64,000 bases of DNA from Rhodothermales bacterium (GTDB lineage: Bacteria > Bacteroidota > Rhodothermia > Rhodothermales > UBA10348), in assembly GCA_040221055.1 (NCBI GenBank), contig JAVJVN010000012.1, positions 236,890 through 300,889 of the forward strand, written 5' to 3'. Shown here piece after piece: positions 27,823-33,757 of the stretch. Positions within the stretch are counted from its first letter, which is position 1. Each line of letters opens with the position of its first letter. The translations under genes and the position numbers were made by a program. The notes under the pieces were generated by a model, which saw only the letters and a program-made list of their open reading frames with translations, did no database searches and was not told the origin of the DNA.

Positions 27823-28839
27823 CTATTTCGGTGTGGTAGCAAAGGCCCTCAGAAGGGGGACATCCTTGACGGTCTTGAGTCCAGGGCCCGCATCCGCAAC
27901 CAGCGGGATGCCATTGACCAGGGCGGCGACGGTCGCCGTATCCCCGAATATACCGCCTTTGACTTCCAGTTCAATCGGAGGGTTTCCTGTCACACTGACA
28001 GCATCCCGTGGATTTTCGGCTCCGACAAACATGCGCAGATCCAGGGTCAGGACCTCCTGTCCGTTCACGAAGCCATGTGCGTGGTGGTGGATGCCGGCGA
28101 CCTGGCCCGGTTCTACGGTGAGGAACGGCGTCACCACCTGTCTTCCCGAAACGACGGGCTCCAGTTCTTCCGTCATCTCGTCGATTTCCCAGCCGAGGCC
28201 AGCCGCGACCATGTACAGGGACTCAACGAGTCCGATGTGGCCGAACTGTCCCGTGGCTTTCTTGGCTTCGAATTCAGCGGTGGTGATGCCGGCGCCTACC
28301 TTTCGTTGAAGCGGCAGACGTCGTTTTCCGGCATCGACTTCGCGATGGACGGCTACCCGGTGTACGTCGGAGCAAACGCCTGTGGCCATGAGAGCGAGGG
28401 CATCCATGGCATACCCGGGATTGACGCCCGTGCCAAGCAGCGTCACGCCATTCTCCCGGGCGACGGTGTCCAATTCGGCAGAAATGGCGGGGTGGCGACG
28501 GTAAGGGTACGCCAACTCCTCCGTGGACGATACGACGTGGGCGCCTGCACGGGCACACAAGAGCAGTTGGTCGTACATGGAGGCGAGGAACGACGACGTC
28601 GTATGGACGACGACATCCGGTTTCGTTTCCGCCAGGCACGCTGCGGCGTCGGCTTGCACAATCACACCAGTCGGCTCGGAGAGCCCCAGTAAATCGGCTA
28701 CATCTTTTCCGGCCTTCGCCGGATCGATGTCGATGGCACCGACCAGTTCAATTCCGTTGCTCTTGGCAAGCAGGGTCCGGACGCATTCCAGTCCGATGGG
28801 GCCGAGTCCGAACTGGACTACGCGATAAGTCGTTTTCAT
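27823..28839 (-). CDS. DapB-like NAD(P)-dependent amino acid dehydrogenase
   Basis: 338 residues. The N-terminal Rossmann motif is VVQFGLGPIGLECVRTLL; the middle has VVVHTTSSFL and VVSSTEELAYP; the catalytic-domain region has LLGTGVNPGYAMDALAL. This is the dihydrodipicolinate-reductase-like family that includes 2,4-diaminopentanoate dehydrogenase of oxidative ornithine degradation. It lacks the DapB lysine-pathway signature, so a catabolic amine dehydrogenase is more likely. Its start overlaps the pruA stop (ATGA), tying it to glutamate-semialdehyde metabolism. The substrate is unknown. Confidence 0.75.
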   Translation of the reverse strand: MKTTYRVVQFGLGPIGLECVRTLLAKSNGIELVGAIDIDPAKAGKDVADLLGLSEPTGVIVQADAAACLAETKPDVVVHTTSSFLASMYDQLLLCARAGAHVVSSTEELAYPYRRHPAISAELDTVARENGVTLLGTGVNPGYAMDALALMATGVCSDVHRVAVHREVDAGKRRLPLQRKVGAGITTAEFEAKKATGQFGHIGLVESLYMVAAGLGWEIDEMTEELEPVVSGRQVVTPFLTVEPGQVAGIHHHAHGFVNGQEVLTLDLRMFVGAENPRDAVSVTGNPPIELEVKGGIFGDTATVAALVNGIPLVADAGPGLKTVKDVPLLRAFATTPK

Positions 28840-30488
28840 GTGATGGGAGAGTCACCGGCATCCGCTCCATGGAACGGATAGGCAAAATGGGTGGGTGGAT
28901 TGAAGTTTTCCTTGATGGACCGGGCCGATACCCAGCGCACGAGATTCAGATAGGAACCTGCTTTATCGTTCGTGCCCGAGGCACGGGCACCACCGAATGG
29001 CTGTTGCCCGACTACGGCTCCCGTCGGCTTGTCATTGATGTAGAAATTGCCGGCGTTGTCTCCCAGTGCCTCCGTGGCACGGGCGATGACGGCACGATCG
29101 CGGGCGAAGATAGCACCGGTCAGCGCGTAGGGGCTCGACGTATCGATCAATGTCATGGTTTCTTCGAACTTCGCGTCGTCATACACGAAAACCGTGACGA
29201 CGGGCCCGAAGATTTCCTCACACATGGTCCGATAGCGCGGATCCGTCGTGAGCAGCACGGTAGGCTCGATGAAATAGCCTTCCTTGTCCGAATAAGAACC
29301 CCCGGCCACGATTTCCACGTCGGGTGATTGCTTGGCGTGATCAATGTATCCCGTAATGCTGTCGAAGGCTTTTCGGTCGATGACGGCATTCACGAAGTTC
29401 GTGAAGTCCTCGACCGGTCCCATCTTGACTTCCGCCAACTGGGCCGTCATGCTTTCCCGGACTGCGCCCCAGCGGGACTTGGGGATGAAGACACGGGATG
29501 CGGCCGAACACTTCTGTCCCTGATACTCGAATCCGCCGCGAACGATGGCGGTCGCGACCTCCTCAGCGCCCGCGCTGGGGTGCATGAGGATGAAGTCCTT
29601 GCCACCGGTCTCACCGACAATCCGGGGGTACGAACGGTAGCCGGCAATATTGGTACCGATCGTTTTCCACATGAACTGGAACGTACCGGTCGATCCGGTG
29701 AAGTGGAGTCCAGCAAGGTGTTCGCTGGCGAACACGTGTTGCCCCACCGTCGGACCAGGACCCGGAATCATGTTGATGACCCCAGGCGGCAAACCGGCGG
29801 CTTCAAGGAGTTTGTAGATGTACCACGAGCTCAGGATGGATGTGCTGGCCGGTTTCCAAAGCACCGTGTTGCCCATGAGGGCCGGTGCCGCGGCAAGATT
29901 GCCGGAGATCGACGTGAAGTTGAACGGCGCCACGGCAAAGACGAAACCCTCGAGGGCGCGATACTGGGACCGATTCCAGATACCGGCGTCGGAAATGGGC
30001 TGATCCTGGTAGATCTGCTCCATGAAATGAACATTGAACCGGAAAAAATCGATGAGTTCGCATGCCGCATCGATTTCCGCCTGCATAGTGTTCTTGCTCT
30101 GGCCGAGCATGGTGGCGGCATTGATGGTGTCGCGCCACGGCCCCGCAAGCAACTCGGCGGCACGCAGGAAGACGGCCGCTCGATCCGTCCAGTGCATCCC
30201 GGCCCAGTCGGCACGGGCCGACATGGACGACGCGATGGCCGACTGGATTTCGGGGCCATCGACCTCATGGGCCACACCCAATTTCAAGGCGAGGTCATGC
30301 GGTGCCACGACGTCATGGGTCTTTCCCGTATGGATTTCCTTGCCCCCGATGACGGCTGGAATATCAAAGGTTTCCTTCCGCATGGAAGCCAACCGGGCAC
30401 GCAAGGCGACACGATCCGGCGAACCGGGCTCGTAGGTGCGGACCGGCTCGTTCACGGGATATGGAGGGGTGGCAATCTGGTTGTTCAT
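28836..30488 (-). CDS. pruA: L-glutamate gamma-semialdehyde dehydrogenase (P5C dehydrogenase)
   Basis: 550 residues from ATG 30488. It oxidises glutamate semialdehyde, the open form of pyrroline-5-carboxylate, to glutamate with NAD+, the last step of proline and ornithine/arginine catabolism. It is the stand-alone form without a PutA proline dehydrogenase. ALDH marks: FAVAPFNFTSI, the NAD loop FTGSTGTF, catalytic Glu293 in VGETGGKDF, catalytic Cys327 in YQGQKCSAASR, and the C-terminal QQPFGGARASGTNDKAG. It leads a four-gene operon, with a palindrome 43 bp upstream of its start codon. Confidence 0.95.
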   Translation of the reverse strand: MNNQIATPPYPVNEPVRTYEPGSPDRVALRARLASMRKETFDIPAVIGGKEIHTGKTHDVVAPHDLALKLGVAHEVDGPEIQSAIASSMSARADWAGMHWTDRAAVFLRAAELLAGPWRDTINAATMLGQSKNTMQAEIDAACELIDFFRFNVHFMEQIYQDQPISDAGIWNRSQYRALEGFVFAVAPFNFTSISGNLAAAPALMGNTVLWKPASTSILSSWYIYKLLEAAGLPPGVINMIPGPGPTVGQHVFASEHLAGLHFTGSTGTFQFMWKTIGTNIAGYRSYPRIVGETGGKDFILMHPSAGAEEVATAIVRGGFEYQGQKCSAASRVFIPKSRWGAVRESMTAQLAEVKMGPVEDFTNFVNAVIDRKAFDSITGYIDHAKQSPDVEIVAGGSYSDKEGYFIEPTVLLTTDPRYRTMCEEIFGPVVTVFVYDDAKFEETMTLIDTSSPYALTGAIFARDRAVIARATEALGDNAGNFYINDKPTGAVVGQQPFGGARASGTNDKAGSYLNLVRWVSARSIKENFNPPTHFAYPFHGADAGDSPIT

Positions 30489-30806
30489 CGGTACTCGGGT
30501 CAGGTAAAGATCAAACCTCAATGTACTCACTCAAACGGGCCGTTTGAACCCTTTCATTCAAACTTCCAAAGGCATGGAATACCCTTGGATACGGCAATTC
30601 TTTCCGTCGAAGTGCACAAGTTTCCGGCGTACGTGCCCATGCAGGTCCGCTCCGGAAGAACGCCCTATGTCATGCGTTCAGTAGGGAAAAACGCCTCATT
30701 CACGCATTCAGGGCCATCCTTTCGGACGAATCCTGTCTGAATCGTCCACGCGCCGGAATCAGGCACAGCATTCGCATGCACCGAGGATGAACAAACCCGA
30801 ACGACC
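30489..30806. other. 318-bp divergent intergenic region
   Basis: It lies between pruA (minus) and the GvpL/F fusion (plus). It contains a 17-bp perfect palindrome (30531-30547) and two further TCAAAC copies at 30511 and 30558. The right two-thirds (about 30570-30800) shows no convincing RNA fold, ORF or repeat to me. Promoters for both genes must be here, but I cannot place -10/-35 boxes with confidence. Confidence 0.7.
30531..30547. promoter_or_regulatory. Palindromic operator candidate upstream of pruA
   Basis: TCAAACGG-G-CCGTTTGA is a perfect 8-bp inverted repeat around one base. Extra TCAAAC half-sites lie at 30511-30516, 20 bp away, and at 30558-30563. A GntR regulator is encoded at the end of the pruA operon and is the natural candidate ligand. 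No binding evidence. Confidence 0.45.
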
Positions 30807-33683
30807 GTGAATCAATCTACCCAAATGGACGAGGCCCGCAAGGCGGTCAAGAAGCAGTTGCTTCAGACGCTCATGCAACAGGCCGTTGAAGATCTGGCCT
30901 CGGAAAGCGACGACGCCATCAAGGAACAGATACAGTCTGTTTCCATCGATCTCGAACCCCTTCGACTGCGGATAGAGCAGGTCGCACAGGAGCAGGTCCA
31001 GCGCGCAACGCGCATTGACGACGCCGTCCTGACCAATATGGTGCACGGCTGCATCGAGAACGTGGATCTGGAGGTCTATCGGAAGGCGGTGGATCACACG
31101 GTTGGATCCGTCCTGCATTCCCACATAGAGGACATTGCCCGCTCGGTCGCTGAGGAGCAGTCGGAACGCTTGGTAGCGGCATCTGATGTGGAGTCCCTGG
31201 CGACGGCCGCCATGCGTTCGCGGGTGACAACCATCATGAGTGGTCTGGACGTGGATATCCATGCGTTGATGGACGCTGAGGCCGAACGCCGGGTGGATAC
31301 ACAATCAGCGCTGGTCGCCCAGGCAACGGAGGTCGTCCGTGATCTGCTCGTAACCAAGGCCGTCGATGCAGCCATGACCCACCTGGACGAAGATGCCATT
31401 CATCAACAGATCCAGGCCGAAGCCAGCCGACGGACCGACCATGCGTCGCCGTTGGTGGAACAGGTGTCAAGCCAACTGCGGGACGCTCTGGTACAAAAGG
31501 CCGCCGACGTCGCCATTGCCCGTCTGGATGATGTGGATCAGGTGGCGCGCGAGGCGCGCGAACTGGTGTCATTCGACAATGATGCCATCGTGGCGGCATC
31601 CACGCAGCTGCGTGGTCGCATACTTCAGGACATTGCTCGGCGCACGACCAAATCATTCGGGGATGCGGATGATGTGGCCAGCGATGCTGCGGATTGGATT
31701 GACGTTGACCAGCCGGAACTGGTGGCCGCGGCCGAACGCGTCCGGGTCATGGCGCTTGGCATGGTCCGTACCAATGTTGAAGAAATGATTGCCCGGACCG
31801 ACGAAATGGCCGAGGATGCCGGATTGCCGTTCACGGACCAGCACGAATCGGTCCAGGCCGCGGTCCAACTGACCCACGACAGGATTGTTCAGTCCGTGTC
31901 CCGCATTGTCAAGGAACGTCTCGCCGACACCAAACAGATTGCAGCGGCAGCAGCCGACACCATCCCGGCCGAATCCGATGCCATCCAGCGCATTGTCAAG
32001 GCCACCCTGTCCCTGATTGTCGGCGACGTCATCCAGATTACACAGGACCGTCTGAGCCAGGTGGAGAAGCTCTCTTCCGACGCCAGGACTCGCATGCCGG
32101 AGCGGCTTTCGGAGGTTCAATCCGCGGCGTCCATCCTCGAGAACATGCTGCTCCAGGAGGTCTCCGAAGAGGCTGTTTCCTATCTGCATGATATTGAACG
32201 TACGTGCAATGCGGCCCGTGGGAAAGTGACCGACGAGTCACCCATCATGGTCGCTGCTGCCGCGATGGTGGACAGGCTCCAGCAGGAAGTTGCCGCCGTG
32301 GCCGTGAAAGACCTGGCGTCCATCGATGCCCACGCAGACGCTGCGATCTCGTTGGTGCCGTCCGACCATCCGAATTTGAACGCCATTCACCAGGAGGTAC
32401 AGACCAGGTTGGTGGCACGTGTTACGGAATCAGCGCTCGATGCGATCATGGAAACGGATGTCCAGGAATGGGTCCGCTCCGACGATGCACGGCTCGAGTC
32501 CGTAAGGAACGTTCTTCGCGAACGGATCATCGGCCGGATCCTGGCCGATACACTGGGAGGCCTCGGGCAACAGGCCAACCAGTCGTCGGATCTCGAAGAA
32601 CGTGCACTTTTCCAGGAGGCCATGCATGCCGTGGCCAAGCAACAGACCGGGTGGAAGCCCCTGTCGGACATCTCCGACCATGTCGCAGCACCGGTCGCCG
32701 AGCCCGAGCCGGTAGCCACGCCGGTGCCTGAACCCGAGCCCGAGGCTGTAGCCACGCCTGAGCCTGAGCCGACACCGGTCGCCAAGTCATGGGAGGTTTC
32801 CGAGATCTTTGCCCGTGCAGGTGACGGCCACGATGTGGTCCTGGATGTACCGGCCTATGAGGACCACATTTATGTCTATGGCATTGTGGATGTGGACGAG
32901 CTGCACGATCAGGACCTGGACGGGCTGGAAGGCATTGAGACCGGATCGGATGTATACATCTGTTCCAATGGTGACCTGAGTGCCATCGTTTCTTCCGTGC
33001 CGGCGGCCATATACGGCAAGAAACAGCTCGATCAAGGCATGAACGACGCGGCCTGGGTCAAGGAACAGGTACGGCGCCATGCGGCGGTCCTTTCCGCCAT
33101 AGGCGCTCCACGATCCATCGTGCCCCTCAAGTTCGGCGTGGTCCGTGCTTCGATGGAAGACGTCAAACACTATCTGGACAGTCACAGCACGGTATTCCAT
33201 GAAACGTTGGGACGGTTGTCCAACAAACAGGAGTTCAGCGTACGGATCCGGGTGGATCTGCACCGCCTGGGTGAACATGTGCTCGAATCCGATGCGCGGA
33301 TTGATGCCTCCTTGAACGACATGTCCAGCGGTGTGGCCGGTTTCATCCGGGACGAATTGAAGCTCAGGAATCAGGATCCTGACGAGCAGGAAATGGCGAC
33401 CATCATCCAGAACGTCGTTGGCCAGGCTCATGCACGCTTGCAGGATCTGTCCTCCGAGAGTGTGTTCATGAACGCGCCGCCGGCCGGTCCCAAGGATGTC
33501 CAGCGGGTGGTCCTGAATGCCACCTACCTGGTTTCGACGGCCCGGGATGCCGCTTTCGATGCCGAGGTCAATGACATGGCCAACCAGTTCCGCCATTTGG
33601 GTTTCGAAATCCAGGTCAGCGGTCCGTGGGCGCCCTATCACTTTGTTCATCTCAACGATGAATCCCAGGAAATCCCTGCCTGA
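30807..33683 (+). CDS. Giant helical-repeat protein with C-terminal GvpL/GvpF domain
   Basis: 958 residues from GTG 30807; an ATG at 30825 is an alternative. No signal peptide or membrane helix is evident. Residues ~1-146 are helical, with less regular repeats. Residues ~147-585 hold about ten tandem ~44-residue helical units. Residues ~630-660 are a Pro/Glu-rich linker (AEPEPVATPVPEPEPEAVA and on). Residues ~687-948 match the GvpL/GvpF gas-vesicle family: HIYVYGIVD, DLSAIVSSVPAAIYG, RRHAAVLSAIGAPRSIVPLK, FGVV, LNATYLVSTARDAAF, and VSGPWAPYHFV at the end. GvpF/L proteins bind GvpA and help vesicle assembly. No gvpA, gvpC, gvpN or gvpK is nearby. The gene stands alone, bounded by a divergent region and a strong hairpin. 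Function unknown. Confidence 0.85.
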   Translation: MNQSTQMDEARKAVKKQLLQTLMQQAVEDLASESDDAIKEQIQSVSIDLEPLRLRIEQVAQEQVQRATRIDDAVLTNMVHGCIENVDLEVYRKAVDHTVGSVLHSHIEDIARSVAEEQSERLVAASDVESLATAAMRSRVTTIMSGLDVDIHALMDAEAERRVDTQSALVAQATEVVRDLLVTKAVDAAMTHLDEDAIHQQIQAEASRRTDHASPLVEQVSSQLRDALVQKAADVAIARLDDVDQVAREARELVSFDNDAIVAASTQLRGRILQDIARRTTKSFGDADDVASDAADWIDVDQPELVAAAERVRVMALGMVRTNVEEMIARTDEMAEDAGLPFTDQHESVQAAVQLTHDRIVQSVSRIVKERLADTKQIAAAAADTIPAESDAIQRIVKATLSLIVGDVIQITQDRLSQVEKLSSDARTRMPERLSEVQSAASILENMLLQEVSEEAVSYLHDIERTCNAARGKVTDESPIMVAAAAMVDRLQQEVAAVAVKDLASIDAHADAAISLVPSDHPNLNAIHQEVQTRLVARVTESALDAIMETDVQEWVRSDDARLESVRNVLRERIIGRILADTLGGLGQQANQSSDLEERALFQEAMHAVAKQQTGWKPLSDISDHVAAPVAEPEPVATPVPEPEPEAVATPEPEPTPVAKSWEVSEIFARAGDGHDVVLDVPAYEDHIYVYGIVDVDELHDQDLDGLEGIETGSDVYICSNGDLSAIVSSVPAAIYGKKQLDQGMNDAAWVKEQVRRHAAVLSAIGAPRSIVPLKFGVVRASMEDVKHYLDSHSTVFHETLGRLSNKQEFSVRIRVDLHRLGEHVLESDARIDASLNDMSSGVAGFIRDELKLRNQDPDEQEMATIIQNVVGQAHARLQDLSSESVFMNAPPAGPKDVQRVVLNATYLVSTARDAAFDAEVNDMANQFRHLGFEIQVSGPWAPYHFVHLNDESQEIPA
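31245..32561 (+). repeat. Coding repeat array: ~10 units of ~44 codons
   Basis: Unit starts by residue: 147, 193, 240, 284, 331, 372, 416, 460, 503 and 548. Unit lengths run 41-47. A rough consensus is L-x-x-[VI]-x-x-[AI]-[AS]-x-x-A, a polar gap with Asp or Glu, then [VI]-x-A-A-x-x-[VL] and a second helix ending in A-x-x-x-[LV]. Examples of unit starts: LDDVDQVAREA, LADTKQIAAAAA, LSQVEKLSSDA, LHDIERTCNAA, LASIDAHADAA. DNA identity between units is low, so this is an old array rather than a recent expansion. Confidence 0.7.
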
Positions 33684-33709
33684 GCATTGCTCGGGGCGGG
33701 TTTGTTCAG

Positions 33710-33743
33710 CACGGGGCGGCGGACGGAAGTCCGCCGCCCCGTG
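33710..33743 (+). terminator. Strong hairpin after the GvpL/F fusion
   Basis: CACGGGGCGGCGGAC-GGAA-GTCCGCCGCCCCGTG is a 15-bp perfect stem with a GGAA loop, followed by TGTTTGTG rather than a pure T-run. It very likely ends the 30807-33683 transcript. It finishes 14 bp before the next possible start codon. Confidence 0.75.
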
Positions 33744-33757
33744 TGTTTGTGTAAGGT

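Follow-up and report, generated by a model that had tools for sequence, protein, structure and literature searches.

An orphan GvpL/GvpF domain on a long helical-repeat arm in Rhodothermales, with a possible role outside gas vesicles

The window, by which we mean the whole 64,000-nucleotide stretch analysed here (Rhodothermales bacterium, assembly GCA_040221055.1, contig JAVJVN010000012.1, positions 236,890 to 300,889 of the forward strand), contains a true orphan GvpL/F gene. It codes for a C-terminal GvpL/F domain, the head, behind a long array of helical repeats. To our knowledge, GvpF and GvpL have been studied only as gas-vesicle assembly factors. The initial annotation had noted that no other gvp gene lies within 64 kb and had named a gvp cluster elsewhere in the genome as the finding that would speak against a reuse of the module. 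We looked for such a cluster and it is absent: the genome (3.32 Mb, 22 contigs, 99.5% complete) contains one GvpL/F match, with no match across it to PF00741 (gvpA and relatives) or to the gvpK model, and no second GvpL/F. These negative results are meaningful because both models do match in the f13 genomes that carry gvp clusters. The orphan genome and the strong domain match described below agree with the earlier suggestion that a GvpL/F module is reused on a repeat arm without gas vesicles. We consider it quite possible, if somewhat short of probable, that a GvpL-type domain has been taken over in Rhodothermales for a cytoplasmic scaffold or chaperone-like adaptor, the head of which acts on a client other than GvpA.

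The gene (30807..33683, plus strand), delimited by the open reading frame list and its Pfam match, is an open frame of 958 amino acids with a GTG start that aligns with the ATG of L078, the closest named relative (MNQSTQMDEAR / MNQQPQMDEAR). Four parts follow one another from the N-terminus. The first is a conserved amphipathic helix, unit 1 ('MDEARKAVKKQLLQTLMQQAVEDL'; 30816..30899, plus strand), matched by the unit profile at residues 6-31 with 20 bits; the equivalent segment was aligned in the long forms of the protein and identified by eye in the short ones. The helix opens the helical-repeat arm (~residues 4-612; 30816..32642, plus strand), the regular part of which lies at 31446..32576 (plus strand), with profile-matched units starting at ~residues 214, 258, 302, 346, 390, 434, 477, 521 and 560. 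The Pro/Glu linker seen earlier could be placed at ~residues 613-684 (32643..32858, plus strand); it is rich in Pro, Glu and Ala and predicted to be disordered (AlphaFold2 pLDDT <50). The GvpL/GvpF head completes the chain (residues 688-948; 32868..33650, plus strand). The highest 19-residue mean hydropathy of the protein is 1.36 and no segment reaches the level of a membrane helix, from which the protein looks cytoplasmic. Usual GvpL and GvpF proteins are single domains of ~200-300 residues, and ordinary GvpL/F open frames span ~250-365 residues in the 394 genomes that we sampled from the phylum, whereas relatives of the window protein range from 680 to 1918 residues where the frame is intact.

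The assignment of the head is firm. The initial annotation had taken the lack of a significant profile match as grounds for giving up the assignment; instead, PF06386 (GvpL_GvpF) covers residues 688-948 over profile positions 2-245 of 245, with an E value of 6.9e-46 and 157.7 bits against a curated cut-off of 23.6. The best Foldseek matches of the head model are the GvpF crystal structures 6l5d (E 2.5e-11) and 4qsg (E 4.5e-11), both with a target TM score of 0.71, and the sequence profile also retrieves both structures. The signature residues Y689, H758, P773, F776, E809, G939-P940 and F946 are kept, and the same residues are conserved in the orphan long forms, in their sister group and in other GvpL/F proteins. 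By curated cut-off, fold and signature residues, the head is a member of the PF06386 family, while the protein falls outside the functional class of gas-vesicle GvpL/GvpF by equivalog score, gvp gene context and size: the NCBIfam equivalogs give 63.3 of the 200 bits required for GvpL and 35.1 of the 350 bits required for cyanobacterial GvpF.

In gas-vesicle assembly, GvpA has its primary partner in GvpF, which behaves like a chaperone; GvpL interacts with many accessory proteins, and a platform role has been proposed for it (PMC7688916, PMC11445434). We propose that a GvpL-type assembly domain was recruited in Rhodothermales to work outside gas vesicles. By analogy, the head, held on a flexible acidic linker, would most likely bind a hydrophobic or self-assembling client together with other proteins, and this client would be something other than GvpA. 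As fold and signature residues are kept while GvpA is absent, an adaptor or chaperone with another client appears to be the most economical reading. The 44-residue helical units would derive from amplification of the N-terminal helix, and the acidic array that they form would probably act as a multivalent scaffold or tether, which concentrates or spaces clients.

The arm of ~610 residues ahead of the linker is strongly periodic, as had been proposed from about ten units of ~44 residues. Matched against itself, the arm scores best when shifted by exactly 44 residues, and harmonics appear at 88 and 132; the combined score of these three lags was attained in 0 of 20,000 residue shuffles, and the best lag scored above the best at any lag in all 1000 shuffles. 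A unit profile built from relatives recognises 11 units in the window protein, spaced by 43-44 residues (~residues 214-521), the array being less regular before residue 214, and finds 2 to ~21 detectable units in the long relatives, mostly spaced by exactly 44 residues; L084 has the most regular array. Averaged over 239 units, the repeat pairs an amphipathic helix ~26 residues long with a shorter one of ~11, is rich in Ala, Leu and Glu, and has a net charge of ~-3. An AlphaFold2 job with 14 sequences modelled the head confidently but the arm as low-confidence helices, and a second job on five in-register arm units stayed at a pLDDT of 46.6, so that prediction of the whole chain bears out a head with a GvpF fold but is too uncertain in the arm for the rod that had been suggested. 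The sequence periodicity of the arm, rather than its model (pLDDT ~46), suggests that it probably serves as a scaffold.

A Pfam scan of seven arms yielded chance-level matches and no curated repeat family, and in the genomes with clear matches the arm profile found this gene alone. Among the sequences examined, the 44-residue array occurs only in Rhodothermales. Searches with the arm against plasmids and with the whole protein against phages returned no hits and hence no sign of a mobile origin, and PADLOC and PHROGs matched neither an anti-phage defence nor a phage protein. We also considered reading 44 as four times 11, as in apolipoprotein- or GvpC-type repeats, which fits the hydrophobic moment of the long helix poorly.

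The most serious rivals of the adaptor proposal both concern the arm. One is that the arm is an amphipathic array that binds membranes or lipid surfaces in the manner of apolipoproteins, the head recruiting proteins there. The recurring amphipathic helices, with their high content of Ala, Leu, Val and Glu, would suit such a role, and their profile resembles apolipoprotein E weakly and without significance (E 0.08), but that profile also picks up designed helical bundles. Moreover, the long helix has its peak hydrophobic moment at ~91-94 degrees, whereas ~98-100 degrees is expected of 11-residue surface helices, and a net charge of ~-3 per unit would be unfavourable on acidic membranes. We therefore regard a lipid-binding arm as unlikely, though worth keeping in mind.

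The second concerns the weight given to the head: the arm might be a structural rod or filament-forming part that stands alone, with the head as a dispensable cap. The clearest cases in its favour are G005 and G006, which retain the arm and linker in a frame that ends ~10 residues before the head, this head-less end recurring in the two genomes with nearly identical sequence. Only part of the head is present in G050 and in members of genus g47 of family f13, and G009 retains 259 residues. In G018 and G019, the P5C-dehydrogenase-like (P5CDH-like) and LolE-like genes, between which the orphan gene would lie, are adjacent with nothing between them. All these gains and losses were read from draft genomes, in which single cases could be assembly errors. 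Going by the head-less and partial-head relatives, the head is not always essential, and since the arm is kept where the head is lost, it either has a role of its own or decays later than the head. That the arm profile finds no other gene would also suit a rod. Against it, the head is better conserved than the arm within genera, and in Rhodothermus and f8 short forms keep the head with the arm almost absent, which makes a stand-alone rod rather improbable.

The short forms occupy a second conserved locus in f8, f10 and f11 (Rhodothermus), which adjoins genes for succinate dehydrogenase subunits and a LysM-transglycosylase (L065, L067, L060, L068-L071). Long and short forms have in common an N-terminal helix that can still be recognised (in the shortest forms, by eye), and we saw no genome with both forms. 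By eye, this helix also seemed related to the N-terminus of L091, the gas-vesicle GvpL of an Anaerolineae bacterium, but the score was no better than that of shuffles, and we do not claim homology. In genus g3, three loci (L179 1-1541, L181 1-2426, L180 2996-3772) encode the arm without the GvpL/F head, or the first part of the arm only. Genus g47 of f13 has, besides the protein at the usual locus, a second orphan protein of 475-483 residues (L196 7229-8653, L077 7764-9212), made up of repeat units and the C-terminal half of the head only.

The variable arm length also invites more far-reaching ideas. One might speculate that an undescribed protein assembly or compartment, other than a gas vesicle, is built in Rhodothermales and perhaps elsewhere in the phylum: the head derived from GvpL would chaperone or dock a client that self-assembles, and the arm, variable in length, would set spacing or size; we hold this to be doubtful. 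A related idea is that the repeats line the rib-like surface of a non-GvpA shell like a GvpC coat, while the head couples to shell assembly. GvpC likewise has helical repeats and a C-terminal globular part, its repeat number affects vesicle shape (PMC9501494), and repeat number varies widely here too. However, the GvpC Pfam model matches neither this protein nor the arms of its relatives at E values up to 1 and the period is 44 instead of 33, as the initial annotation had recognised in calling the repeats unlike those of GvpC; in addition, no gas-vesicle-type shell protein was found in the genome. A GvpC-like coat is thus quite improbable.

A survey of gene neighbourhoods, as had been called for, showed that the architecture occurs throughout the lineage and is syntenic, that array length is highly variable and that the head is sometimes lost. 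The orphan gene lies between a divergent gene for a P5C-dehydrogenase-like aldehyde dehydrogenase and a gene for a LolE-like FtsX/MacB permease (identities from Pfam on the window genes), and this locus recurs wherever the contig is long enough in the window's family, f4, f5, f6 and genus g47 of f13; families f1, f4, f5, f6 and part of f13 have the orphan gene at one locus. Peroxiredoxin, MoaD and MoaE genes follow further downstream in most loci, and PurC is also a neighbour. We considered a function in common with the flanking genes. Together, the P5CDH-like enzyme, the LolE-like permease, peroxiredoxin, MoaD/MoaE and PurC point to no pathway, and the neighbourhood is a broadly conserved context that stays together without the orphan gene in several genomes, which makes it weak evidence of a common function. 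As a separate observation, the P5CDH-like gene and a gene for a protein with a 2,4-diaminopentanoate dehydrogenase C-terminal domain (together 27826-30530 of the window) are adjacent in most loci of the family and are possibly an amino-acid degradation pair.

The divergent promoter region claimed for the gene stands as a gap of 276 bp (30531..30806, by the coordinates of the open frames), shared with the P5CDH-like gene (28839-30530, minus strand), from which the orphan gene is presumably transcribed by its own promoter; no sigma-70 consensus site was found in this region. The hairpin noticed 3' of the gene is present, with 16 pairs (33709..33744, plus strand) and a T-rich tail, and resembles an intrinsic terminator. 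As it precedes the LolE-like permease gene, the orphan gene is probably transcribed alone. Because the scan expects 2.4 sites of any kind by chance in the region, the case for a terminator leans on the comparable hairpins with T tracts that were read by eye 3' of many relatives. An element of 11 bases, GTTTGTTCAGC (33700..33710, plus strand), lies just 3' of the gene in the window and in L021, L029, L030, L033 (one change), L036, L179, L180 and L181, and in several genera directly precedes the GC-rich hairpin, even where the head is lost.

Evolutionary evidence bears on whether the gene is simply decaying. Within genera, dN/dS is ~0.06-0.13 for the head and ~0.14-0.20 for the faster-evolving arm (simple NG86 estimates with dS near saturation). 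In a tree of 95 rows, one branch, with an SH-aLRT value of 71 (quick tree), has every orphan head on the same side; the heads lie inside a group with one GvpL-type paralogue of Chloroflexota and Hyphomicrobium-type gas-vesicle clusters (support 97), and do not group with the gas-vesicle GvpL/F proteins of their own order. A decaying relic of a lost gas-vesicle cluster might look like a gene in a genome without gvpA or gvpK, the head of which is lost or shortened in some relatives and which is missing elsewhere between adjacent P5CDH and LolE genes. However, a relic would hardly show such low dN/dS in the head, intact signature residues, an arm expanded to as many as ~21 detectable units, and a locus, apart from any gvp cluster, that several families have conserved, and we consider this explanation very improbable. 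Because the heads form one GvpL-type branch, keep the signature residues and have low dN/dS, we conclude from the sequences that the domain has been put to a new use and is not a relic. In the simplest scenario, the protein would descend from a gas-vesicle GvpL that lost its association with gas vesicles, and its N-terminal helix would have grown into the array, which we infer to have proceeded by amplification of that helix.

The orphan state extends well beyond the window genome. In the order, GvpL/F is present in 44 of 114 genomes and gvpA in five of the 114, all from family f13; in the window's family, 19 of 27 genomes have GvpL/F, one gene each, and none of the 27 has a gvpA match. A scan of named genomes with an alignment query gave 80 GvpL/F loci. 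Each of the 67 loci outside Rhodothermales includes gvpA, whereas the 13 from Rhodothermales encode long proteins without gvpA, on contigs that in some cases are only a few kilobases long. It is scarcely credible that the protein is an ordinary GvpL/F of gas vesicles and that its cluster escaped notice in an incomplete genome of 22 contigs, given 99.5% completeness, the family-wide lack of gvpA, a single GvpL/F per orphan genome where cluster-bearing genomes have several, and single-contig genomes of f4 (G045) and f10 (G061) without a gvpA match.

Neither GvpL/F proteins outside gas vesicles nor this architecture turned up in our searches of the open-access literature (subscription journals and preprints being outside this scope), in line with the initial annotation, to which the architecture was new; databases probably already label these proteins 'GvpL/GvpF family'. 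A domain under strong selection in a lineage without a detectable shell protein points to a use outside gas vesicles, and the orphan lineage could also reveal what the GvpL/F domain recognises in general. As short forms occur in Rhodothermus, this question is testable in a cultured relative.

Among known systems, the GvpL-type paralogue of gvp clusters (L091, L094, L096, L107, L120, L138) resembles the window head in its full-length domain, fold and signature residues. Unlike this paralogue, the window gene is present in a single copy outside a gvp cluster, without gvpA or gvpK, and its product adds ~600 residues of helical repeats in front. With GvpC, window-type proteins share a variable number of helical repeats and a C-terminal globular part, but differ in period, in the C-terminal domain, in lacking a sequence match and in the absence of gas-vesicle genes. 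The short orphan GvpL/F proteins of Rhodothermus and relatives (L068-L071, L065-L067, L060) belong to the same head group, likewise without a gvpA match, and have an N-terminal helix, 'ARxxLKQWWLxAILxQ', that resembles unit 1 of the window; they differ in their frames of 312-581 amino acids, the lack of a repeat array and their other locus, conserved in f8, f10 and f11. Lastly, among the 394 genomes sampled from the phylum, five that lie outside the order each encode one weak GvpL/F-like domain. These single-copy proteins from other families (L203-L207) also combine an N-terminal helical segment, a low-complexity linker and a C-terminal GvpL/F-like head without gvpA, although their heads are weak (E 1e-12 to 3e-7) and a 44-residue array is lacking. 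Orphan GvpL/F proteins may therefore represent a broader class that reaches beyond Rhodothermales.
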